Origin: Apostichopus japonicus | Taxonomy: Eukaryota; Echinodermata; Holothuroidea; Aspidochirotida; Stichopodidae | Assembly: GCF_037975245.1 (NCBI RefSeq) | Contig: NC_092568.1 | Span: 7,919,501 to 7,983,500, forward strand | Direction of reading: 5' to 3' | Length of the DNA: 64,000 nucleotides | In this document: piece by piece, positions 1,491-60,397 of the stretch | Layout of the letters: every line of letters starts with the position of its first letter | Numbering within the stretch: the first letter of the stretch is position 1 | Notes under the pieces: generated by a model | The model's input: the letters and a program-made list of their open reading frames with translations, nothing else | Told to the model about the DNA's origin: nothing | The model's database searches: none | Position numbers and translations under genes: made by a program

Positions 1491-1521
1491 GTAAGACCAG
1501 GGAACAACTCCCTGGTAAGAC
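1491..1521. mobile_element. 17-bp hairpin insertion with 7-bp target duplication
   Basis: The hairpin CAGGGAACAACTCCCTG occupies 1498-1514. The 7-mer GTAAGAC is present immediately before (1491-1497) and after (1515-1521). Its reverse complement differs by one base from the hairpin at 19306. Confidence 0.55.
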
Positions 1522-1655
1522 AAATATTTTGACCGGTTATATTACGTTGATAAAGCGTGTAATTAACAAGAACTTACAACCATTTCTTTTCATAGTGGAT
1601 ACCATTGACTTGCGCGAGGGGGCTGGGGCGGCTTGCATTGATACTAGGGCTCCAC

Positions 1656-1855
1656 CAGTAGCGTAACCAGAGGGGTTTTTGGGGGCTCGCCCCCACTCTC
1701 TCTGCAGCCCCAAAAGAAATTTTAGAATACAATATAACTTAATAATTAGATATAGCGAAACCCTATTTCAAACAATATTGTGCCCCCCCCCCTTGTCAAT
1801 ATCTTTGACCCCCTCTGAAGCCCCTCTAATGAAAAAGTCTAGTTACGCCTATCGA
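1656..1855. mobile_element. Possible degenerate hAT-type MITE
   Basis: It starts CAGTAGCGTAACCAGAGGGG, similar to the hAT-type terminus at 9468, and the right side near 1840-1855 has an inverted TAGTTACGCC. No target duplication is recognisable, so the borders are uncertain. Confidence 0.3.
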
Positions 1856-3209
1856 TGGAGCTTCCATAGACCATCGGTCTCGCGGGCCATCGGTTCGCGG
1901 AAATTCGGTCTCGCGGACCTTCGGTCTCGTGGAATTCCCCCCCCCCCCCTTGTTTCTCTCTTTTAAATTAAGCCCTGACGTTTAGGGAACCCATTCATTG
2001 TTAGCGCGTCGCTAGACTAGCGGAATAAATCAGTTGCCTGGTTTGCCCGATACGCATGTTGACTCCCATCTCTCTCTATCTAACTACATCTTTCGACATT
2101 GTGAAGTGACACTATACTAAAGGCAGCCTTTGCATATGTTTAGGCCACCTTTCATTTAACCTTTTGGTGTTTTATTTTCAGCAGAAGCTTCAATCACCCA
2201 TCAGTCTACAGCACGAGGCAGACCAGCTAGACCTTTGGTGTTATTTTTATCTTCTTTTTTTTTCTGTTCTCGAGTCGACAAATAACATCGTGCTTCTACG
2301 TACGGGGACTTCTGTGACATGTTAGGGATAAGGTTGCCAATAATACTCGAGCAGCAGAGCAAAGGAACACACCACTCCACGAGCATTGACGTATAAATCG
2401 CACTCTCTCCTACTGCGGGCAGTAAAAAGATTTTTTCAAAGTTTGCTTTGCAGCAAATCGTGTACACCTTTGCGTATCAACGTATTTCTGTATGTACAAG
2501 GATTTCGTATTTGATTAATTAATAAATTCTGTTTTTAAAAATATTTTTTAAATGTAAATTTTACGATACGGAATCATTTAATCAGTTTTCCTTTCCTGTG
2601 GTTTCTTTTTTGTTTTCTCACTGCAACATGTTACCGCTTAGCCCTACGGTTGTCAATGCGATATCTGTGAGTCTACAGAAGTAGTAGTCGGGCTTGGCGT
2701 GATGTTACATTCCTGTGCGGTGAAGTGAAACAGGGCTTATTCTACAAGCCGTGTGGACGGAACGAATCCAAGAAGCAAGCTGTGTGTTACATTTACTCAA
2801 GAGTTGGAACACGGAAAGGTTGTATGTCATACTGTTCTCATGTGCTTGTGTAGCTTTTCTTAAACAAGACCACTGGTTTGAAGAAGATGCCTTCACATGA
2901 CAAATTTGGATAATAATAATAATATCTTCCTGTTGGAAAATCCAGATCATTTCGATAAGGATGATTGTAAATGGAGTAGTGTATTTTTCATATGATTTAC
3001 CCCGAGCGGTAGATGAGACAATAAATATTTGAGTAAGTTTGATCTTGACCAACACATATTCTACTACAAATAAGATTTCACACACAGGGTGGTACTTCAA
3101 CGAAACATTTCGTGAACGATACCAGTACTATACCACTAGCCTATATATATATATATACAAATATATATATATTTTTTTATTGATACTTATAACTGGATGT
3201 ATTGTGATC

Positions 3210-41949
<38,740 letters not shown>

Positions 41950-44900
41950 CCAATCAGAGATTAGAATGAGATTTGAAATACTCTACATGCCAGGGTTATT
42001 CTGAGACGCAAAGTTTCTCAATGCCTGAGGTCGGATTCAAATGCATCATCACGTGACTGAATGAGATTGTATTCTCTGCATCTTGCCTTGAAGTACTTGT
42101 TTTTAAAAATTTAGGATTCTATTTGTCTTAGAATTCCTTTGGTTTATAAATTTATATTTGCTTAAGTTATTAAATATCAAGACGAGACTCGGCTCATTTT
42201 CGTTGACAAATCAGATTTGACTTCTGGAATCAAATTTTCTGATGAAATAGAGTTTTTCTACATAGTTTCTTCTCTTCATTAACAAGCACTGTTTACTCTC
42301 ACCTTGAAAATAATTAAAAAGATGGACAGAGAGGAGAAAAAAAAGTTTCACATTTCTCACAGAACTGTTGGGTTAATTACTTCTGGAAGATAATATAACT
42401 AACAGAGTAGTCACCACATTTATGTTCCTTTTTATTTTTAAACGTTAGTCTGAAGTTGTTTTTTTTTTTTTTGCATAAGTGTGGATTATGTTTCGGTTAC
42501 CCTGTTATTTACCTTATGGTAAGAAATGCTTGTTAAGTTGAGGTATTTTTTTTTTTTTAGTTTAAAGATGGCCCACCAAGCTGTGACTGATAAATTGCAA
42601 CTTTACTGCATTGCGTGACATGAAATGCATTGTTAAAATTAAAAGAAAAATGTACTAAATAGTTACTATGGAATCATACATTGAAAGTTCACCAAAACTT
42701 CAAGATGTATCATCTACAGCAAAAGTGCCGAGCTGAAAATGTTTGTTGTTTCATGATTTAGCTCACAAATGAAGCAAAGATAAGATTTATTGTACATCAT
42801 GTGTGTATCATGTTAGCATCATGTGTGCATCATGTGTGCATCATGTGTGTATCATTTGTGTATCATGTGTGAATCATGTGTGTAGGCAATAAGTGTGGTA
42901 GGATGTCAAGAACTTAAAACAGACACACAAAGGTACTCTTTGTATGTTATGCATGTATGCGTGTATGTATCTATGTGTGTACACGTGCGTGAATGTGTTT
43001 GTGTTTATGTATGTATGTTCATATGCGTGTGTATATGTTTCTGAATTGAAAGTGTGTACCAGCAAGTGAATGTGAGTCCTCAAAATACATATCAGACTTC
43101 CTTCACTTGAATGGCAGTTTTGTAAATATTTTTTTCAGTGGTTATATTTCCTTTTGCAGAACCAAACTTTTAAGCACAGTGTCAAATACATTGCACATTT
43201 TTATATGTGGCGGCATGAAATGCCAAGTTTCTGTACTATTTATAATATTTTCTGCAATTTTTTGAAAACTGCATTTGATTTTAAACTGAATCATTGTAAC
43301 AAATGAGCACAAAAACAAAACAAAAACACACTACCATATACTTATATATGTTGTACAGAATTCAAGGTGAATTGTGTTTTTGTTGGACGATCATAATCGT
43401 ATTTCAATCTATCATGAAATGTGAACGCCCACCATATCAATGATGCACCTGTTACATACAGTCATTGCATGCCATTACATAACGTGTACTTACAACTGCT
43501 TTGCTTTGGAATCTCAGTTATACACTAAAACAGATGAATCGACAACGGGCCGAGACACTCGAGCAGATAGTTACCATCGTGGTCTAAGGTCACGAGCATC
43601 TCGTGTGTAAAACAAAGGTCGATGAATTTGTGTGAGTTTCATTGGATTTAGATGTAAATATAGTAAATCCACATACATTAAAATAGTTGCTATAGCAACC
43701 ACTCATCCTATGCTAACAGAGTATGAAGCCATTGCCCATATGATTGGGTTAATTGGAAATCCAACAGAGAAAGATGGATCATGTGACACCCATGTTTTGA
43801 CCATTTTCTTTTAAATGTTTTTTTTTTCTTAGGAACATGTAATGGGGAAGTACACGAAATGTACAAACGGTTAAATTTGTGCCAGTGACAAAAAGTAAAC
43901 ATTTAAAAATTGTGCTTGCTCAGAGCAGAAGAATGTTGGTGTGTAATTGTTCTTTACTCATATGTTCATACTCTGTTTCTGTGTCAGCGTGGCTCGAGAA
44001 ATGTAAAATACTTCTTTCTCTGTCAGACAAAACTGGTCAATTTTAGATGCAAAGTAGATTATAGTAATGACAGGCAAAACAAAAAATTGAAACTATGTGT
44101 TCTGATTGTGACGAAGCTTGCAAGATCGTTAGCATTGATGTTGCATTATGCCAGATACTCTATTAGCAGTGTGCTGAAAAAGGAAGAAGAAATTGTTGTA
44201 TTTGCTTCAACTCATAAAGTAATTTATCTAGAAATATTTCTCAACTTCAAAGTTCAGATTCCTTTCTCATATGCAAGGCATAAAAACAAACAAAAATATT
44301 TAAAAAAATACAGTAAAAATGAGAACAATATTACACAAAGGGAAAATTAAAAAGAAAGATCAATGTTTTAACAATGCTTGAAAGTAACAAACAATACTAG
44401 AAATAAAGTATGTGTGACTTATGTGATATACCTTAATTGAATGTTTTCTTTTTAGTTTAACATTTTCGAAATGAAGCATAAAATTAGATAAGTTGTTGTA
44501 ATGATAATGGAAAAGAACTATATGTACAACAATGAATGTTTGGAAATCATTTTTTTATGGGCCATAGACTCAATTTTCATATTCAATGTTGTATACTTAC
44601 ATGAAATACATTTGAAAAAAATTAATGCAAGATTTGGAAAATACACAACAAATTGTTAGTAAAGGCATATGTCTATTAGTGGATATTAGAAGAAGAAAGA
44701 AGAGAAGTCAGATCTTCATATTGCAGGAATGGAATTTAATTTAGCATAAAAGGGTGACCTGTAATGCATGAAAGTTGGAATATTATTTTCAAATAGTCAA
44801 GAATTAAGAAGTTTCACATAAATATGTCATCAAAAATATGTCATCATAATATGTCATCATAAAACATGGTCGGGGTGAAAATTATCTTGAACTTGTGAAA

Positions 44901-46164
44901 GTGGAACATATTCTAAGGTTCTTAGTGAAATTTGCATCCAATTTCTATATATCGTTTGCAATATAACAGCATTTGAAATTTACACAACTTTGTGGCAAAA
45001 GTGAATTTGAAGCAAACAAGTGTGTGTGGTGTCACAGAAGCACATTGACAAATTGCTTTCATGTTTTTTTTGTCAAATTTTTCTACTTCAAATTGGGACA
45101 TGTCTTACTATGAATACATATAGTCATTGCTACTTGTTGGTACATTGTGAACTCATGTCCCTGTGGGTAAAGGCGAAACCCGGCCCTATCCAATGTCAAA
45201 ACAATAGAGCGGGGAAAAAAAAAACTATTTTGCTGTCGGCATGCAACTATGGCATCACACACTGTTTCCATTGTCTGGAAAACAACTTTTGCAGGAATTT
45301 CTAGCAGATTGCAGCAGGATGTTTAGCATATGTACCTCTTCCATCGGTCAAAAAGTCAAGTTTCAACATGATATGTCATTTTAAGAAAAGAATGATACAC
45401 TGCAGTATTTTAATGACAGAACCTTTTAAAAAGGTAGGGAACATTTATTTGAGACATTTAAGAGTTTGATACTGTGAGCAATAGTTTTTCATGCCATGAA
45501 AGAGTTTAAAACCTCTGAATTGATTGGAAGGACATTGGTTTATGTTTGATGAAAAATTCAGAATAATGCAAATGTTATTGGAATATAAGAAATGAATCTT
45601 CCATTTAATATTTTGTTTCTCCACGATATTATTTATTCTTAAGAAGTTTGAAATGCCCTTTTAATTGAACATCTTATTTTCTTTAGAATTGCTTGTAATA
45701 TTGTATTATATGTTACCATGGTTTCGTGGCTGATCATTTGAAAGTCTGGTTTAATATGTACTTCAAGTCTGCTAGAGAAATATTGGACGTTGAATTCTTC
45801 TTTTTTTTCTTTTTGCAAAAATGCTTTAATTTAAAAATTCAGTTTTAGTATATTTTGCCTTAGATATTTGTCTTAATATGAAAATTTGTTTCAAGTCTCT
45901 TTTCTTTCCTCTATTTCAACTGTACAATATAACTGAGATAAAATGAAATTAGTCTACCTGCATTTTCTATTTTCTATTTATTGAAAGAAAAAAAAGAGGT
46001 GTTAAACTTACAGCTCATTTTGTTAGTTTGCCTTAACAATAGAAACAAACCTACCCAATAAAAATTTTAAAAATTGTAAATTGGACAAAATTATAATATT
46101 TTTTCATCTACAGCCTGGCATGTTGTCAGGTAGGGATTTATGGACCAGTGAATGTAACATTGAT

Positions 46165-46165
46165 A

Positions 46166-46205
<40 letters not shown>

Positions 46206-46211
46206 TATATG

Positions 46212-46280
<69 letters not shown>
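46165..46280. repeat. AT microsatellite
   Basis: (TA)n with GATA and GTATA interruptions, about 115 bp. Confidence 0.85.
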
Positions 46281-46281
<1 letters not shown>

Positions 46282-46553
46282 AATAACGCGAAAAATGTTG
46301 CATTTAGAGAAAGGCTGGATCTCAAGTGAGATAAAATAATTAATTTTGGTAAGTGATTGGAAGTAAAACAGTCAATATTTGGTTTTTGCAGAGCTTTCGA
46401 GCAAAACTAGCTCTTCTTCAGTGCATAATCACCGAAAGTGAACATACCATATATATATATATATATATATATATCTAAAATGATCACTCCATTTTGCTAA
46501 TACCCATAGGCGCATCTCCGATCAATTTAATCTCAGTATGGAAGAAAAGTCAT

Positions 46554-46936
46554 ATAAAAGGCATTGAAGACTCGCCCCAAACCGCGTACAGCCATCTGAA
46601 AAAGTTAACTTTCCGTTGCTTGCAAGTGACGTTTTGTTTGTGTCGCTACAAAATGCAGACAGTACAGTAATGAAACGTGATACCTTGTTATCTTTAGCTG
46701 GACCTGAGATGTCCATCACTGTATTGTTTGTATGCTGTGCTGTGCTGTGGGTATTGACCGCAGCTGTATGTACTGACTGTACACTATAGTGTCTAATTAA
46801 CGATGGTAACAAGCTGTGCGTGTGTATTTTTTGGGATCGATGGTGGTGTCTAACACTTCTGTTACACCTCATTCGAAACTAGGTCAGATTACCGGCATCA
46901 GACGTTTCCTTTTGCGCGAGTCTTCACACCCTTTAA
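46554..46936 (+). mobile_element. TTAA-flanked MITE, copy B
   Basis: Starts (ATAA)AAGGCATTGAAGACTCGCCC and ends GCGAGTCTTCACACCCTTTAA. The left TTAA has mutated to ATAA. The open frame on the minus strand of this element is not a gene. Confidence 0.8.
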
Positions 46937-48544
46937 GAAGCAGAGCCAACAAAAGCTAAAATTCAATCAGCAAGTGTAGCGAGTCTGTCCGTCCGTCTAT
47001 CTATCTATAGAGGATAGATTATATACGTGGATTCAAGGTTTATAAAGCACGGGTGTTGTGGCTATGTCATTGAAGCGCATTCCTATGTATAGGGGGTCTG
47101 GGTCCTCCCCATGAAAAAAAAAGTGAAAATAAAAGTTGTCAAAAGGAGCTTTCAAGGCCATATTTAGACTGCAACGTAGAAGTTCTATAATAAGGTCTTA
47201 AGTTCTAAACACAATGTTGTGCTGATAAAATATTACATTTTTGTGTGAGGTTATCCAGCGGGTGCTCCGCCTCTGGGATGGTCTAATTCTTACTTGACTG
47301 AACGAAAAAAATCCGTACAACAAAGGTGGAGGTGACGGCCAGAGTAATGAGTTTTCATTTTGGAAAATTGCCCGAAATGCCAAAATGAATCAATGCCTCT
47401 TTCTCTATTTGTAAAGGGTGCCACCTAAAAAGCATACATGTGTCTGTTGAAATCGAGATAAGTGGTTGCATCCAGGGACTCGAGGTAGGATTCTCACGTT
47501 AGGAGACGGAATAGCGCCAAGGCCTAAAAAACATTCGCATCATTTACATTTAATGCGCCATCTTTTTACGTTGGGGCACCGCAAACAGCATTTTATCAAG
47601 TTCACTGACCTTCTCGTTATCTGGTAGGCCAAACGTTAGATCTAGGGTTATGTACGCTAGGTAGGCCTAACCTTAGAACTAACGTAACTAAGAGTAGACA
47701 GAGTAGACCTATCCAAGTACGAGTGATGTTAAACCCAAGTGTAGTGTGTTGCTCCCCTGCGAAGTGCGAGTAATACAATGCTGGTAGTTAAATACAAATG
47801 GCAGACGAACTAGCCTAAGGTAGCATACACGCCTACTAAAGCCCCAATGACTTACACACTAAGTCACAAAAGTAACGGGGTAAAGATAAAAGTTCACACT
47901 AGCTCAACGCTACCCATCACTCGATAGCTGAAGGAAAGGCCGGCACCATCAAGTTTTCATGACTGAAGATTTTTTGCTATGGGCACCTGAAGTTTTTGTA
48001 ACTTGTAAACAAGCCCCTTCACTCAGTAGTAAACATATTTCATAAGCTACTCCTGGGAGGCCATAATGGGTCTAAAACTGCCTTGAGTTGACCCAATTTT
48101 TGCACCATAGTACTTCCATAATATGTTCTTCATCATGCAAGCCACAGAAAACCAGATTTTGATTGATAACATATCAAAAGCGTTATTCTCCTACTGCATT
48201 TTGGCACTCAATATCGTAAGCTTTGTTTGTTTACCACTACAAAGATAAAGACTTAGCCTCAACTAACTAGTAAAGTTTACTCATTAATCTGTTTGAACTT
48301 AAAGTTAGCTTTAATGTCAAGAAACTATCAAAGTAGGCTATGGCTGCTAAGTGCTATGGGAACCCAGATCAAAGGTCACATGGTAATTAAGGTCAAGTGT
48401 TTTACAATGAGATATTTTATGGCCAGTTTACGTCTAGATGAGTCATATAGCAGAAGAACAGGCTTTTGAAGTTTTTTTAAAACTTTATTTACTTATTTTT
48501 GCAGTCTGTTTTAAATTCAGGTGGTCTTGAATATTGTTTGACTC

Positions 48545-48590
48545 TGTTTCTACTTTCTCATAATTTTTTTTCTCGATTTAGGCAGTCAAA
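48545..48590 (+). promoter_or_regulatory. Probable 5' UTR splice acceptor of MTARC
   Basis: A pyrimidine-rich tract ending TCTCGATTTAG at 48581, followed by GCAGTCAAA and the ATG. This implies at least one non-coding exon upstream, which I could not locate. Confidence 0.5.
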
Positions 48591-48817
48591 ATGGCTAATG
48601 GTCTAAAGAAGGAAATTGTTCTTGGCTCAGCCATAGCAGGAGCTGTTGGAGCGTTTGGTCTCTACATGTACATGTCCAATAAAAAGCAGAAGGAATACAA
48701 AAGGGTTGCCACGGTAGCAAAATTGTATTTGCACCCTGTGAAGTCTCTTAAAGCTATCGAAGTGGACGAAGGAGAAGTGACCAGCAGGGGCTTTAAAAGC
48801 AATGGCATTTATGACAG
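48591..48817 (+). CDS. MTARC: MTARC exon 1: membrane anchor and start of MOSC N-domain
   Basis: The ATG at 48591 has a strong context (A at -3, G at +4). Residues 1-76: a short basic start, hydrophobic VLGSAIAGAVGAFGLYMYM, then NKKQK and LYLHPVKSLKAIEVDEGEV. The donor GTGAAA splits the Arg76 codon. A pyrimidine tract ending TTTAG nine bases before the ATG looks like a splice acceptor. Confidence 0.92.
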
Positions 48818-51800
48818 GTGAAACAATTTTTTCTTTAAAAGCTGACTGCCTGTACAGTTGCTATCTATGATGGGGATATTTGTTATAATTCTATGATTAT
48901 TGTATTTTGTTTCTATTGGCCTGTGATGCTATATAACACATAAGTCAAACTATCATCATATCAGGAGTGCAAAAACCATATTAAAATTGGTAGAGGTCAA
49001 ATGAGGTCAACAGGTGGCAAAAGTCTGAAAACCTGTTCAACATGATAACTCCAAAATTAAAGTTATAATTAAACTATGAAATTTCCAATGCTATGATTTT
49101 CTTTTGGTGAACATAGTTTGGTCAAATTCAGTGCGGTTTAGTTTTGTGAAGGGGCTCTTCAAGTCTTCAACAAAACATACAGTCATCTAGGAAAGGAACT
49201 CTGCTTCAAGGAATCAATATTCTTGCTTTAACACACTCACACAGGCCTTAGCAGTTTCACCCTCTGAACTTCAAGAGATCAACAGGATATCTCCAATGGT
49301 GGAGGAGGGGGGGGGGGGTGGGGTGGCTTGAGGAGTTAACAGCTTATTTCAAATGGTCTGAAAATTGGCCATTTTCTCTATGATTTACTCTAGATGACTT
49401 TTGCTTTGGCAGTAGTGATAATATTTCACAGTGGATGGTTTGCTAGGTGGCAGAGCTGATTTGCTTGCTCAAAGTTGGTAAAAATAAATCATCCTTTTAT
49501 TCATACATTTATGTGCCTATATTTCACATAGGAAGACTTTCTGGATATTGAAGCAGATTTCTGTTTACTGTAAAATCCTTACCAGTGGATTAAATGGTTG
49601 ATGTCCACAAGGGAGCTGGACATCTCTGATCTTTTCTGGTTCTCACTTGAAGGCATTGAATACTCACCCCAAACCGTGTGCCGCCTCTGAAAAAAGGAAA
49701 CTTTTTGTTGCTTGCAAGTGAAGTTTTCTTCTTGTTGCTACAAAATGCAGACAGTAATGTAACGTGATACGTTGTTATCTTTTATCTGAACCTGAGATCA
49801 GGGAGTTCCATAACAACTCCCTGCTGAGATGTTCGTCGCTGCTATGGACACTGTTTTGTGGGTATTGACCGTATCTGCATGTATTGACTGTACACAAGTG
49901 TTTAATTACCGACGGTAGCAAGCTGTGTGTGTATTTTCTGGGATCGATGATGGTGTCTAACACTTCTGTTACACCTCATTCGAAACTAGGTCAGATTATA
50001 GGCATCAGACGTTTCTTCGTGCGCGAGTCTTCACACCCTTTAATTCTTGGACAAATTTAACTCACTTGCTCTACATTAGTCAGATAGGTATTTGAAATTT
50101 GGAGAAAATTGTATGGGAAGGAATCACAAAGCCAACTGGTTTTCTGGGTTTGTTGCAAGCAATGGATAAAATGCTGTTTCAAATGTGATTTGAATACCTT
50201 AGAACTATTTGAATGAATCTCTTCAGCGCTTCCCCATTTGTGTGTACTCAACTAGGCAAAGTTCCAAAGACTAAAATCACAACAGTATATGGACTGTCTC
50301 ACTAAATTCTGAGTACCCAAAGTGATAGTGTAATAGATCTATACAAAAGAAACCCTTCCTCCTTTCTTTTTGAAGAAGAATAATTGTTGATTGTAAACTT
50401 TGTTTATAAATCTGCAGTACCCAAAATAAGTGATAAACAACAAACTGTGGTAGTTTACAATGAGTCTTCCACAATTATTGCATTGTCTTCATCTGAAATT
50501 TATGCTATTCAAGCTGAACTTCAGAGCAGGGAACACATAATGCAAATTTCACAATACTTTTCAGTTTTGGAAGAGGGAATCAATGATAGATTCTGGAACA
50601 CAAATAAATGATGTTGTTGTTCAAGGACAAATGGTGCCAAAACAATTTCTACAGTGTATGCCATGAAATGCCCCCCCCCCCTCAACCCGTACATCTGCAT
50701 TGGTATAGTTTCTGGTTACCTACATCACAGAGGCCTTTAGTCCACTATTAGTAAATTTTGGTAGTAGACAATCATCATTCCACAGGCTTTTGTCCCATTT
50801 TTGAAAATATTTAGTTAATTTTATAAAAGCTAGAGAAGACATAATTTGATCTCTTGCTAGTTAGTATATATAAGCTGCCTAGAATTAATGTAAATGTGTA
50901 CCCTTGCTTTAAAATATTATAAATGCCCCTGATTTCTAGTAAAAGATGTCACTTTATTTGACTTTTTCCTTCATATGTTCAACATACTTTGATTATTTGG
51001 TTTCACCTAGCCTTCATGCTTTCTCATCATTTCGCCGCTAAAATGCACTTTAGATCTTTCATGGTGGTCGATGAAGAAGATCGCGCCATCACGGCCCGTA
51101 AATGCCCCAAGATGATCTTGATCGAACCAAGCTTTGCAGAGGACGAGAAACATCTGGTTCTCAGCGTAGAAGGCAAGGAAGACCTTTACATACCGTTAGA
51201 CCAACAAGGCACAAGAATTGAAAGCAGGTGAGAAACAACATGTCACAATATCTGCAAAAATTTTGTAACGTTTCTTTCAGTAGTATTAACACTTTCAAGA
51301 AAATCTTTACTCTGGATGTAGTACTTACGTGATAATGTGAAAATGACTTTCCACTGCCACTGGGAGACAAAAACGACAACTAAAAAGAAAAATTCTATGT
51401 TGCTGATTGAAAAACCTGTTTCAATAGCTGTACATTAGCCACATCGATACGTACGGTTTTCAATTTAGTATGCAAATGCTAGCTTTTTGAAATGTGGACC
51501 GAATATCTCGCTTGCAACTGCATTTTGTGAATTACATAGAGACCTGCTATCATATGGAGAGAGAGATACGTGTAATTCCAACTTGTTGTAACTTTCTAAG
51601 ATGCTTACCAGAAGTTACTGTCACAGATGTCTTTAAAGGATCACTCCAAGGCACAAAATTAATTTTAATTTGTCGTAGCCCGTTACAAAGCACTTGCTAG
51701 CAGGCCAGGTTATATTTCTATATAACCCTTTAAACATCTGAGGCTCATCAATAACAGCACATTTTTGTACCGCTGACCGTACAAGGTGTATCAATGTAAC

Positions 51801-54800
51801 TATTGTCCGTTTCTCTGCAGAGTCTGGGGTATTCCCGTATCAGGATATGACTGCGGGGAAGAGGTAGCCAAGTGGCTCTCAGACTATTTGGAGGGGACAT
51901 ACCGCATGGTTTTCTACAGTGAAGAGCTCCCAGCCAAGCTGTTGACAAAAGACGTCCGGTTCGGCGTACATATGAAAGACAATGAGACAGTAAGTGATAA
52001 ATCGCTCATCGCCGATTATCTTTACAGTGTAAACTTTAATCGCTGCCACGTATGTTAGATGATATTGGACATCAAACAGCTTTGCTCACTACTCTGGCTA
52101 TAACACTAGAAGGGTTACATTGTTGTGCTGACCCCCCCCTCCCTCCCTCCCAAGATCCCCTACCAATGCTGAGGGAAAGACCTGGTTACTGTACCAGTGC
52201 ATTTACTTTGCCAAGGTACCTACACTCAGGGATGTGTCCAGGATTTCCTGAGTGCCGGGTATACTGATCGCCGTCCTGGGTGAGGGGTCTAAGGGGAAGG
52301 GGGTGTCCCCCTCCCCTTTGAGAAATTTTTCGATTTTTGAAGGTGCTCAGATGCCAAATGCTGGCACTTGTGTAGCTTTTTAATCACATACACAAGTACT
52401 AGTTTTGCTATTAAACAATTTACATTTTTAAATTTTTTTTTAGTGAAATATATTACGTACCTGGTAAAAGTTCTTAGTTTGTTTCAAAGAGATTTTACAA
52501 GGGACCGATTGAGAGCCGTAAGTAATGTTTCTCGCATGCGGAACTGATGCATTATTAGTCCGTATGATTTTGGCTTATAGGCTAGGCCCAATTTATGTTG
52601 AATATATTGTTAGGAATGTCAGGAATTTAGATGAAAATAGTGCTGGGCGGGATTCACGATTTTTAAGACAGTGCTGGGAGGTAATTTTTAGTGCTGGGCG
52701 GGGCCGCCCAGTGCCGCCCAGCGTGGGCTCATCCCTGTACACTGTAAGGCACATCTTCATGGGTTTTTTATGGTTTCTCTTTTCTCTTTGCAGTCACTGT
52801 ACCAAGATTGCACGCAGTTTCTGATAATCAGCGAGGCATCTATGGAAGACCTTAACACTAGGATCGAAGAACCTGTTACAGAGAGGAACTTCAGGCCAAA
52901 CATTTACGTGACTGGCTGCTCAGCGTATGCAGAGGTATGATGATATCGATATCAACGTAGATATGAATTGGACCTGTTAGGGATCTAGCTTTGTCACAAA
53001 GTTCCGTTTTGGCTATTTTTTCTCCAATCCACCTTCTCGCTTTGATCTTTAGGTGTTAGATTCCAGTAAACTACAACAGTGCAGCAGTACATTCTCTTGT
53101 CTGGTTTCACTTTCATTTCAAACATAAAATATAATAGAAATTTTTTGAAAATTTTGCATTTACTTTCTGATTAATAAACTGAAGGTCAATGTGTGAGTGT
53201 ACCGGTAGATACTTTTGATTCTTTTCATGTATAGGTTTTAACATTTTATCATTTGAAATTGAAACTTGAGGATGTCAAGCCAATGATCCCGTGATTTAAG
53301 GTTTCAAATAGCATCGATAGATTTTATCAGTCAACTCTTAAAAAAGACTTTTTTTTCTGCAGGACGTAAAGATTTATACATATTTTGAGGCAAGCTAGCA
53401 TCAAAACAGAAAGGCCTTATGCTTTCATACATGTATAGCTCCAGCTATTATTCTACATGCATGCTAATTTTTTATTTTTTTTCGTTTTTTTATTCCATTT
53501 GCAGGACTTTTGGAAATACGTTAAGGTCGGCGAGGAAGCAGAAATGCGGTTTACTCACTTTTGCGGCAGGTAAGACCGGAAAAAGAAAAAAAATGTTTGT
53601 AAGGTTTGTGCAGCCATCGGTACTAGATGACAGAACTGTTTTCCCCTATCGTATGTCAAGATGGTAATGATTTGATGATTTTGAGCTTTTGTTGTTGTAA
53701 GTTTGATAAGACCATCTTATAAAGGGGGCTGGGCAGGGTGAGTGCATGCCATTACATCCTGTAGACCAAATGAGTCTTGGTTTCTCTTTTATAAGTCAAA
53801 TTAATCGTCCACAGGAGAAAAATTTTGGATAATATTATGTGTTATCCTTTGTTGTAATTGTCCCTGCAATTTTTACCCCTTATGCATATTGACATACATG
53901 TTTAGGAATGCTCTCAGTATACCATTCCATGTTCATGGGGTATAAAACTTATTTTTACTTTCAGATTCTGCCTGAAAGATTGCATTAATAACACCAGTCT
54001 GTGTATAATGATAAAAAATTACCTCTCAATTTATACTTTCAAGCTTATAAACTACTCAAAGCGATGTCATGCACGAAGCAATATGGTATTGTACAATATT
54101 TGGGAATAATCATTCCGCCATCAAATGTTGCATATATTTATCGATCATAGGATACCAATCATTCCAACCCCTCCCCCCCCTGCCAACCGCCCTTCTTTTG
54201 ATTGATGCAGAAATTAATTGAATTAAAGAACGATCTCTTCTGTGATTAAAAAAGAATGTTGATTTGATCCAAAGGTATTTTATATATTGGCTGCTCAGTT
54301 TCATTTTTTGGAGGATTTTTATCCTTTTTTTTTTCTCTTTTGTTTGTCCTTCTTCATATTTGGAAATTCATCAGATGTAAGATGACTACTCTTAACCATG
54401 AGACTGGTTCATTCATCTCGCTGGATCCCCTGAAGACACTCAAGGAGTGAGTCTTATGTACTATTATGGGCCCGTATTTACACCCTGGTTTCAAATCCAC
54501 CTAATAATTGGGGTAGGGTTGCCATGTCTTCCCATACATGTCCATCTTACTTAGTTCTTACCTGAATGTCTGGTTGGATGTACTAAACTTTGAAGTCTGG
54601 TTACTCTTTTAGATGCTGGTTGTGCTTCATAACAGTGTTTCCCTGCCAACTAAATTCACTTATGCAGTGATCTATACAAACATGGTTTAACCTCAAACAT
54701 GGCATAGCTATGATTGGTCTTGGGATGACTAGTTCCCTCCCCCCTCCCCACCCCCCCATCTAAATATACTATACTTTACTGTACTATCCACCTATATATG

Positions 54801-56009: not shown

Positions 56010-56590
56010 AGGTCTAACACAAGTATTCATACTGATATACAAGTATTCATACTGATATAGGCCTACAAGTGGTCATACTGGTAGTCATACTGATATACAA
56101 GTATTCATACTGATATATAAGTATTCATACTGATATATAAGTATTCACACTGATATAAAAGTGTTCATACTGATATAGGCCTACAAGTGGTCATATTGGT
56201 AGTCATACTGATATACAAGTATTCATACTGATATAAAAGTGTTCATACTGATATAGGTCTACAAGTGGTCATACTGGTAGTCATACTGATACACAAGTAT
56301 TCATACTGATATACAAGTGTTCATACTGATATAGGCCTACAAGTGGTCATACTGGTAGTCATACTGATACACAAGTATTCATACTGATATACAAGTATTC
56401 ATACTGATATAGGCCTACAAGTGGTCATACTGGTAGTCATACTGATATACAAGTATTCACACTGATATATAAGTATTCATACTGATATAGGCCTACAAGT
56501 GGTCATACTGGTAGTCATACTGATATACAAGTATTCATACTGATATATAAGTATTCATACTGATATACAAGTGGTCATATTGATGTACAA
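56010..56590 (+). repeat. Compound minisatellite, 20-bp units in blocks of about 80 bp
   Basis: Basic unit CATACTGATATACAAGTATT, with an inserted variant (ATAGGCCTACAAGTGGTCAT then ACTGGTAGT) that recurs about every 77-80 bp, six times. Confidence 0.85.
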
Positions 56591-56879
56591 GTTTTATAGG
56601 TACCTGTAAACTAGCCATGGGAATCCAAAAGTACTAACTATAACAAAAGGAAAAATATTATGGAAACTGGACAAACTTAGTTCAAAGACTGCTACAAGTT
56701 TAATACTTTAATGGATGCCAGTGTGTGACATGTAAACACAACCAACACAGTTGGTGCCTTACTATGAAGTCCCAGGAATGCTTTCTGTATAAACACCACA
56801 TACCTTAAAAGGTCAACATGTATTGTCCCCAAATTTTAGCATGCTAAGATTTGCTAGATGTTTCCAAAAGTACTTTTGT

Positions 56880-57365: not shown

Positions 57366-58374
57366 TGACCACTATCCTGGGGGTCAAACTGGTGACCTAA
57401 AAGTTATGTAATTTTAAAAACGTTTATTCTGTTTACCTTATCGCAGCCTTAACTATTGCCTTTTCATTTTTGTATGACTATTGTAACAGAAAAGAAAATG
57501 AATTAAATGATATTGATGTAAGTATTTATTTGGTATTTGAGTCAAAAGATTCTGGTGGGCATTACAGTTAATATTGATGTGTATTATTACTGCTATGATT
57601 TATATCATAACAAGAACCAAGATTTGAAAGGATAAAAATGTCTATAAGTAAAAGATGAAGTGAAGTTTTGTTTTAGAACACATTAATGGAAGGAACCTAA
57701 TGCCTTCTGTATAAATACAACATGGTAGCTATACCAAGTGCCTTCCCATTAAATTTAATATGAACATGGTAACAAGGAAATAAAATATATTTATGTATAT
57801 AAATATTTGGATCAAACCAAACATTTGGCATTTTGATTACTAATATTACTATATAATGCTGCTATTCTTGTAGCATATAATTCACTTCTATTATGTATAT
57901 GATATAGGGACCAAACTTGGTAGATTTAAAAAAACAAATTCTTGAATTACAAGACTATTGACGTATTGTTTTATTCCGCTCAAGAGTACTTTGAGAGGAT
58001 GCAAAATAGTTATTTAGGATGGATGGTTTACCCTGACAGTCATCCTCCACTTGGTGCAAATTATTTGGAAACAAATGCATGCTGGTGGTGACAAGGAACT
58101 TATACAGTTCTTTAAATCTGAAAACCTTGTAACTGTGATAATTTCATACTTAGTTTGTTGGAGACCTTTGTGAGTACAAGAAACATATTGTAATGTTGTG
58201 AGGGTAAAATGTCGTTTCATTTGAGGTCAACAGAGGTCAAGTCCCAAATGTTCCAAAAGCTAAGCTTGAATGAACTTCATACCCACTATGTGGATCTAGG
58301 GTGATGACAAGAACCCTATCACTTTTGTGGTGAGCAAAGGTCATCATCAAGTCTGAAAGCTTTTTACTAAGTTT

Positions 58375-58880
58375 TTACTAATTCATGTGCTAATTGCATA
58401 TTGTTAATCAAAATTAACAAACCATACTTGATATTTGTAGGAACAATCACTGAGGCTGCTGGTTCACAGGTTTACTAATTCATGTGCTAATTGGATATTG
58501 GTAACCAAACTTTACAAACCGTACTTGATATGTAGGAACAATCACTGAGACTGCTGGTTCTCAGGTTTACTAATTCATGTGCTAATTGGATATTGTTAAC
58601 CAAAGTTTACAAACTGTACTTGATATGTAGGAACAGTCACTGAGGCTGCTGGTTCACAGGTTTACTAATTCATGTGCTAATTGGATATTGTTAATCAAAG
58701 TTTACAAACCATACTTGATATGTACAAACAATCACTGAGACTGCTGGTTCTCAAGTTTACTAATTCATGTGCTAATTGGATATTGGTAATCAAACTTTAC
58801 AAACCGTACTTGATATGTAGGAACAATCACTGAGACTGCTGTTTCTCAGGTTTACCAATGTGTGTGCTGATTTATTGGAT
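58375..58880 (+). repeat. Minisatellite of about 97 bp, five copies
   Basis: Unit contains ACTAATTCATGTGCTAATTG, GATATTGTTAATCAAA, TTTACAAACCGTACTTGATA and AACAATCACTGAGACTGCTG. The last copy is degenerate. Confidence 0.87.
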
Positions 58881-59330
58881 ATTGTTAATCATACTTTACA
58901 AATCATATTTATTATATCTGAAATTATTAATATAAGATAGACTTACTCAGCAAAATTATACAAATCATCATGAAATATAAAATGGAAAAGTAGTTATGTT
59001 TATTTATGTTTTCATTATGAGATGTGGGAGAGTTGAAAAGCTTGAATTTATTTGATCGATATATCTTCCGTTATTGCTTGTTTTGATTTTTGGCAGAATT
59101 GGAATTCTTTTATTTCTCTCCCTACTCACTACCCATTCCCCAACCCCACCCCTATTCTCGGAAAGCTCAAGGTCAGCAAAGTGCTATAACAGTATGCGAA
59201 ACTGCTCGCTTGTCAAATTCATTGTGTGTGTTTGTTTTATCAAGTGATGTGTAAGGTACCATATCTGTGTGTGTAGAGATGCTGTCATGATAAGTGATTA
59301 AGCATTATTTTGATCATAAGACTATACATT

Positions 59331-59693
59331 TAAAGGCATTGAAGACTCGCCCCAAACTGTGTGCCATGCTCTGAAAAGTTAACTTTCCATTGCTTGCAAG
59401 TGAAGTTTTCTTCTTGTCGCTACAAAATACAGACAGTAATGAAACGGGATACCTTGTTATCTTTTATCTAGACCTGAGATGTCCACCTTGCTATGTACAC
59501 TGTGTTGTGGGTATTGACCGTAGTTGTATGTATTGACTGTACACTAGTGTCTAATTACCGACGGTAGCAAGCTGCATGTGTATTTTCTGGGATCGATGGT
59601 GGTGTCTAACACTTTTGTTACACCTCATTCGAAACTAGGTCAGATTACCGGCATGAGACGTTTCTTTGTGCACGAGTCTTCACACCCTTTAAT
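59331..59693 (+). mobile_element. TTAA-flanked MITE, copy D
   Basis: Best preserved ends of the family: TTAAAGGCATTGAAGACTCG on the left and CGAGTCTTCACACCCTTTAA on the right, both with TTAA. Its interior has a single CCTGAGATGTCC where copy C has the hairpin insertion. Confidence 0.82.
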
Positions 59694-60397
59694 ACTGCCA
59701 ATGCACCTTCCTTTGTTTGTAGGAACATGCTTACATTTACACTTGTGTATTCCATATCCATTTTTATGATCAGCCAGGAATATGGATCTAAATTGGTTCC
59801 AGCTTTGTGTTCATTGGGGAAATAACAACCCTACTGTCTCCCAGGCTCTTCTTGATCCATGACTCCTTGGAGTTAACTTTGGTTAGTGATCTGGAATATG
59901 AAAGGTTAAACAACCTTGTGATTTTGTGATCAATTCAAGTTCAGCAATGCCATTATAGAATAAAGAGGAGTATGGTATTCTGGCTGTATCCACTTTGACA
60001 ACTTAGTTGGTACATTAATTGCTTTTATTCCATGGTAGAATTCAGTTCCATGTTTTGTTTCACCAAACTAGAATTGTTCGTGTGTAAAGGAAACAGTCCT
60101 TGGGTCTTGATTGATTTCACAGATGAACGGATGAACTGCAACCCACATTCACACACAACTTACAGTGGCATACAGTCAGGGTGATTTTTCTTTAGCTTTC
60201 AGGGCCTAACAGACTTACAAACATCACTACAGAGGGGGGAGGGCTGGGGGACTGGGGGAGGGAAAATGTGGGGTTGGTGCGAATGGCTTTAAAGTATAAT
60301 CAGGCTCAATTTTAAGTATATCACTCCTGCATGCTAGCTCATGGAGAACAGTTTTTTTTCCAGTTGAATACTTGCAAGTGTGTATATTTCGGAGCAG

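Follow-up and report, generated by a model that had tools for sequence, protein, structure and literature searches.

Short hairpins in the genome of Apostichopus japonicus as probable excision footprints of a P-superfamily transposon

A 64,000-nucleotide stretch of the genome of the holothurian Apostichopus japonicus (assembly GCF_037975245.1, contig NC_092568.1, positions 7,919,501 to 7,983,500; hereafter the window) carries four tiny hairpins that begin with CAGGGA and end with TCCCTG, three of them lying between 7-bp direct repeats. They raise the question of what moved: the hairpins themselves, or something larger that left them behind. A preliminary description of the window had taken the 17–29 bp hairpin as the mobile unit and a hAT-like transposase as its possible mover. 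The idea that the hairpins reflect transposition with 7-bp duplications has held up; the proposed unit and the proposed mover have not. Very probably, they are neither micro-elements nor products of hAT activity, but footprints (scars) that a cut-and-paste transposon of the P superfamily left on excision.

Hairpins and 7-bp target duplications

All four hairpins lie exactly where the preliminary description had placed them, and three do have perfect, mutually different 7-bp flanking repeats (Table 1). The pattern CAGGGAN{2,30}TCCCTG has these four matches in the whole window and no others, whereas shuffled sequences gave a mean of 0.05 and a maximum of 1. A blind scan that made no use of the hairpin sequence, with low-complexity DNA masked, looked for 7-bp direct repeats bordering elements no longer than 2 kb whose inverted ends measure 6 bp or more; it recovered the three flanked hairpins and nothing else, versus 0.1 in order-2 Markov controls. 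With the inverted ends relaxed to 4 bp, the filtered scan gave 13 matches of up to 60 bp, mostly within tandem arrays; the output of the unfiltered version of the blind scan was dominated by TA repeats. The fourth hairpin, at 19306, has no flanking repeat and may be a decayed scar or a chance match. A half copy noted earlier at 17719 is real: it consists of one stub whose flank recurs at 6 of 7 positions, overlapping the stub end. Kinship with an element at 52227, also suggested, found no support, since the two have only CAGGGA in common. That element (52227–52737) ends with CAGGGATG/CATCCCTG, is flanked by a 6-bp repeat (TACACT) and stands outside the footprint family. A search of Rfam gave no match.

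We then considered the whole assembly (671,581,487 bases in 35 contigs), where the hairpin pattern occurs at 4076 places, compared to 565 for the reversed control. The window shuffles, the blind scan and this excess together lead us to reject chance as the origin of the hairpins. A sample unselected by end sequence was made up of 49 of the first 50 places listed (all on contig C1) and the four of the window, i.e. 53 hairpins at 48 sites that are distinct by their flanks; C1:1310529, which has the 40-mer of another locus (L006), was left out. The 48 distinct hairpins fall into type A (CAGGGAGTTGTTATGG..; 31), type B (CAGGGAGCTGCTACTC..; 12) and five others. Their flanking 7-mers agree at all seven positions in 23 cases and at six in 10, that is, at 33 of the 48 sites, whereas 2.8% of mismatched cross-locus flank pairs reach at least 6/7. 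Agreement at this level is found for 22 of the 31 type-A and 11 of the 12 type-B hairpins and for none of the five others, whose flanks agree at just 0–3 positions and which, the hairpin at 19306 among them, look like chance matches.

Exact repeat length was determined in a larger set of 111 hairpins (79 distinct), partly selected by end sequence: it is 7 bp in 43 of the 79, 8 bp in one, 10 bp in one, and 5, 6 or 9 bp in none. With both strands pooled, the 43 perfect 7-mers conform to [G/C/A]TNNNA[C/G/T], T and A each being present in 78 of 86 cases. This result bears on the hAT transposase that the preliminary description had thought capable of moving the hairpins. Their ends do begin with CAGGG, which recalls hAT termini. 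However, hAT target duplications are 8 bp long, a length seen here once, and the transposase located between the parental ends on contigs C3 and C17 (see below) is of P type, so that a hAT origin is barely conceivable.

Empty sites provide a second line of evidence. The hairpin at 49799 lies in a dispersed repeat, and in the three other copies of this host repeat in the window the gap is of exactly 32 bp, i.e. the hairpin plus one 7-mer (Table 1). Outside the window, the 20 best additional copies divide into 12 that are empty, 4 extra bases being present in one of them, and eight that carry a hairpin, which is the same 25-bp hairpin in all eight, with point changes in four. Because empty paralogous copies and hairpin-bearing copies coexist, the hairpin must have been gained and later copied along with its host repeat; the shared 25-mer and its point changes further indicate that this scar is old and inherited. 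On the same grounds we rejected programmed DNA elimination in body tissue, which we had also considered. Yet another hairpin, a 32-mer (locus L088), occupies the same target position in a different copy of the host repeat; it fits repeated excision and a second insertion alike, and decides between neither. Given these empty paralogous sites and the genome-wide flank matches above control, the 7-bp target duplications proposed for the hairpins are confirmed: the hairpins mark transposon insertions that duplicated 7 bp of target. As for the host repeat, it is about 0.4 kb long, has 2831 first-look candidates genome-wide and appears to have inverted ends (AAAGGCATTGAAGACTCGC .. GCGAGTCTTCACACCCTTTAA); it is perhaps a miniature inverted-repeat transposable element (MITE) of a different family.

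Parent elements and their transposase

A search for parents with CAGGGAGTTGTTATGGAAC revealed no full element among the places read (30 of 1186, 30 of 89, 20 of 58 and 20 of 34, in overlapping sets); the loci were hairpins, many of them decayed, or one-ended stubs. The end does not include the C at position 19, where the parents have TGG. This continuation with TGG was seen at an end close to a P-transposase locus and in L178. L178 is a 68-bp product that retains all 33 bases of one end and has a perfect 7-bp repeat, GTTCGAC, on both sides.

A search with CAGGGAGTTGTTATGGAATGG yielded 19 places genome-wide, among which four pairs of ends face each other: 4.5–4.6 kb apart on C2 and on C12, 12.0 kb on C3 and 13.1 kb on C17. 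A fifth candidate pair lies on C17, 46.8 kb apart. We read the eight ends of the four pairs, the end at C17:20911623 and L178. All four pairs are bordered by a perfect 7-bp repeat (GTTTAAC, GGTAATG, GTCTGAC and CTGAAAC), and the first 18 bases of these 4.5–13 kb elements are the same as those of the type-A hairpin stubs. Their terminal inverted repeats are 33 bp long and match perfectly on C3 and C17, whereas the elements on C2 and C12 have one internal mismatch; beyond 33 bp, the two sides of each element differ.

The P-transposase domain PF21787 has 45 matches in the genome, two of which (C3:19630435 and C17:23631930) fall between facing ends. In the C3 element, a 625-aa frame matches PF21787 (1.8e-29) and PF12017 (2.1e-5, above its cut-off), and a later frame matches PF21789 (3e-8); against the sequences of the PDB, the sole match is the P transposase 6p5a (1.3e-9). 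The 4.5-kb elements on C2 and C12 enclose none of the listed PF21787 matches. No spanning ends were seen within about 3 kb on each side of seven P-transposase loci, the ends of the C3 element lying beyond the stretch read, and a P-transposase search of 14 control genomes gave no match, a result of little weight. Thus, with a P-type transposase (C3 and C17), a 7-bp duplication and terminal inverted repeats, the parent elements of type A belong to the P superfamily. The 45 matches are spread over many contigs, with many clustered on C16 and C17 and several long open frames (up to 789 aa); of the seven loci read, only C3 and C17:23631930 are connected to these ends.

Anatomy and origin of the hairpins

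At the 56 sites of the larger set with flank agreement of at least 6, the hairpins adopt 33 distinct structures. Variation is confined to the centre, as would result from joining two ends of a single sequence at differing points. Hairpin length ranges from 14 to 40 bp in the unselected sample, to which the following stub counts also refer. Type-A stubs were measured against the 33-bp parental end, which had been found independently of the hairpins. The longest stub is of 18 nt in 14 of the 31 type-A hairpins, of 19 nt in two (one extra base may match by chance), shorter in 15 and never above 19 nt. Provisional values of 19 nt for type-A and 20 nt for type-B stubs were discarded, the type-A value being replaced by this comparison; an earlier overlap test had relied on the provisional end and a hand-made list. 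At the junction, the two stubs overlap by 2 bases in 10 of the 31 hairpins, compared to 13.6% of all blunt joins of 6–18 nt. The two type-A hairpins of the window illustrate this anatomy: that at 1498 consists of stubs of 6 and 12 nt sharing 1 base, that at 49799 of stubs of 9 and 18 nt sharing 2. In the larger set, the frequent length classes are 25 (18+9, 2 shared), 28 (18+12, 2 shared), 29 (18+12, 1 shared), 33 (18+15, none shared) and 34 bp (18+16, none shared), with counts that are biased, as the 18-mer plus C had served to select many of the loci. A P-type excision footprint is characterized by two fused end stubs with a target duplication on either side, and this is the structure of type A.

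One-ended forms also occur: the flank recurs at 6–7 positions near the stub end in 11 of 20 one-ended stubs (at all seven in three), versus 7.4% in the control. For instance, L135 consists of one stub between identical 7-mers (GTTGTTC-CAGGGAGTTG-GTTGTTC), L169 is a single stub with GTACTGT on both sides, and the flanks of L161 and L157 differ at one position. Such one-sided scars speak against the hairpin as the mover, since a one-ended unit is not expected to move.

These features suggest the following scenario. An element of 4.5–13 kb with 33-bp inverted repeats (CAGGGAGTTGTTATGGAATGGAGTTCTGTCTTC) would insert at [G/C/A]TNNNA[C/G/T] and duplicate 7 bp; the duplication itself is observed in the four elements and, by their flanks, in most of the sampled scars. 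Upon excision, the transposase would cleave one strand where the element meets the chromosome and the opposite strand about 18 nt further in at each end, leaving an 18-nt inverted-repeat tail on each broken chromosome end. We infer this tail from the scars and from the analogous 17-nt cut of the Drosophila P element; the stub limit of 18–19 nt is consistent with it. As the junction structures suggest, end joining would then fuse the two tails, often through 1–2 matching bases, with trimming or the addition of a few bases. Because the tails derive from inverted ends, the fused product would be palindromic and lie between two 7-bp repeats. The element would move on and the scar remain, so that scars may far outnumber elements: a cut-and-paste copy is transient and a scar permanent, and scars therefore count past hops, copies present ones. 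A small but steady copy number could plausibly suffice, over a long time, for thousands of scars.

Could the hairpins instead be minimal mobile elements, i.e. micro-MITEs moved in trans by a P-type transposase? Identical 28-, 33- and 25-mers are indeed found at 8, 8 and 6 distinct sites, with 7-bp repeats that differ in nearly all, and there are double hairpins separated by 7 bp, one of which (L092) lies inside an outer 7-bp repeat (6/7). However, a MITE has constant ends and a constant interior as one unit, whereas 33 structures over 56 sites leave no constant interior, single stubs occur between two 7-bp repeats, and the stubs end at 18–19 nt of a 33-bp parental end. Moreover, the recurring classes are those expected from joining two 18-nt tails with 0–2 shared bases, and a 14-bp hairpin with a 6/7 repeat is too short for two transposase sites; Drosophila P is reported to require internal sites (PMC7776569). 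We consider it very unlikely that the hairpins are the mobile unit.

Double hairpins leave the most room for hairpins acting as transposon ends; they would also arise if a second insertion hit the target duplication of an earlier one. Runs of at least two consecutive hairpins with 7-bp spacers were seen at L019, L065, L092, L101, C6:4264559-4264686 and C1:10246139; in one case a type A stands beside a type B, and L065 carries the same 7-mer three times.

Alternatively, the hairpins could be internal-deletion derivatives arising from interrupted gap repair. L178, with one full 33-base end and a perfect 7-bp repeat, is such a product. Deletions of this kind should stop at any depth, yet no type-A stub of the unselected sample exceeds 19 nt, and matches of 43–72 bp are scarce (122 versus 11 in the control). 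Many of those listed are two hairpins with a 7-bp spacer, and others resemble chance. The stub limit thus refutes gap repair as the main route, which leaves it to account for single cases; as a general origin it is very improbable. On C7, 11 of the listed 43–72 bp places (e.g. 2320336) are copies of one hairpin pair with the spacer CTATAAT/ATTATAG; its stubs differ from types A and B, and it perhaps represents a third subfamily.

Several observations weigh against excision footprints as the explanation. The scars number in the thousands but the intact parents are few, and identical 25-, 28- and 33-mers at unrelated sites are what a mobile unit would also yield. Nine of the 31 type-A sites have a flank agreement of 3–5/7 only, and 11 of the 31 type-A hairpins need extra or changed bases, having no clean split into two exact stubs. 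Among the one-ended stubs, 9 of 20 have no recurring flank; of the 11 that do, L168 and L171 resemble decayed two-ended scars and some overlap the stub. The putative 18-nt cut is read from products only. Finally, no facing pair was found for the type-B parent (that of the hairpin at window position 4978) among the 17 places shown; for type B the test covered the duplications (11 of 12 at 6–7/7). The cut itself, the polarity of the tails, the repair route and the type-B parent are presumed, in contrast to the insertions, the 7-bp duplications, the P-type parents with matching ends, the stub limit and the one-sided scars, which are observed.

Relation to known systems and wider context

The staggered cut made by the P transposase of Drosophila is, at 17 nt, unusually long (PMC7776569, PMC10983969), and when such breaks are repaired by end joining, the products consist of duplication, tail, junction, tail and duplication, in many cases with a small overlap or extra bases (PMC2895639). 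The hairpins resemble the excision products of Drosophila melanogaster P in their P-type transposase and product anatomy (PMC2895639, PMC7776569), the differences being an 8-bp duplication and 17-nt tails there versus 7 bp and presumably 18 nt here, and footprints that were induced in the laboratory there and are natural, in thousands, here. Galileo, a P-superfamily element of Drosophila, likewise makes 7-bp duplications, with a consensus, GTANTAC, close to [G/C/A]TNNNA[C/G/T]; it differs by its long inverted repeats and its solo terminal-inverted-repeat and deletion copies, short palindromic footprints going unmentioned in the portions available (PMC4168063, PMC3573991). Pdre2/THAP9 of zebrafish is also a P-superfamily element from outside flies with short inverted repeats starting with CA, albeit with an 8-bp duplication and 13-bp ends of different sequence (PMC10983969).

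With MITEs, the hairpins share a short length, dispersal, inverted ends and target duplications, and they depart from them by their 14–40 bp size, variable centre and one-ended forms. No genome-wide survey of P-type footprints was found in a literature search that covered titles and the beginnings of abstracts and left most subscription journals uncovered. As far as this limited search shows, the kind of product is known, and the host and scale are new, as would be the 18-nt tail.

We lean, by a small measure, towards a P-superfamily transposon that persists mostly through hopping, with few copies at any one time and thousands of permanent scars; the genome would then be an archive of germline breaks and joins in which the cut length (18 nt) is legible from sequence, and some scars may be reused as ends. 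It is easy to mistake short inverted repeats that have target duplications for a new kind of tiny mobile element, and scars each under about 40 bp are likely to escape repeat annotation. Counts of intact copies can badly underestimate past transposon activity. Natural breaks in the thousands, all starting from the same known ends, could reveal the route of end joining in an animal germline, and scars could give the cut geometry of P-superfamily members never studied in vitro.

Table 1. Hairpins, putative scars and host-repeat copies in the window
Feature	Positions	Strand	Composition
Putative type-A scar	1491–1521		GTAAGAC 1491–1497; 17-bp hairpin 1498–1514; GTAAGAC 1515–1521
Putative type-B scar	4971–5013		CTTCCAT 4971–4977; 29-bp hairpin 4978–5006; CTTCCAT 5007–5013
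Putative one-sided type-A scar	17712–17737		GTGGTAT 17712–17718; stub CAGGGAGTTGTTATGG 17719–17734; ATGGTAT 17731–17737 (6/7, overlaps stub end)
Hairpin CAGGGAGCTGTTCCCTG	19306–19322		No flanking repeat (7-mers agree at 3/7)
Putative type-A scar	49792–49830		CTGAGAT 49792–49798; 25-bp hairpin 49799–49823; CTGAGAT 49824–49830
Dispersed repeat containing the 49799 scar	49647–50047	+	
Repeat copy, empty site	59327–59696	+	CTGAGAT once
Repeat copy, empty site	38736–39110	-	ATGAGAT once
Repeat copy, empty site	46558–46936	+	CTGAGAT once

The window also contains exons (3210–3569, 35340–35600 and 52794–52937, with IGFBP, VWC and MOSC domains), typical of an animal nuclear genome, many minisatellite arrays with units of 20–95 bp (e.g. 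3873–4415, 41175–41754, 56019–56592 and 58374–58902) and long TA runs.

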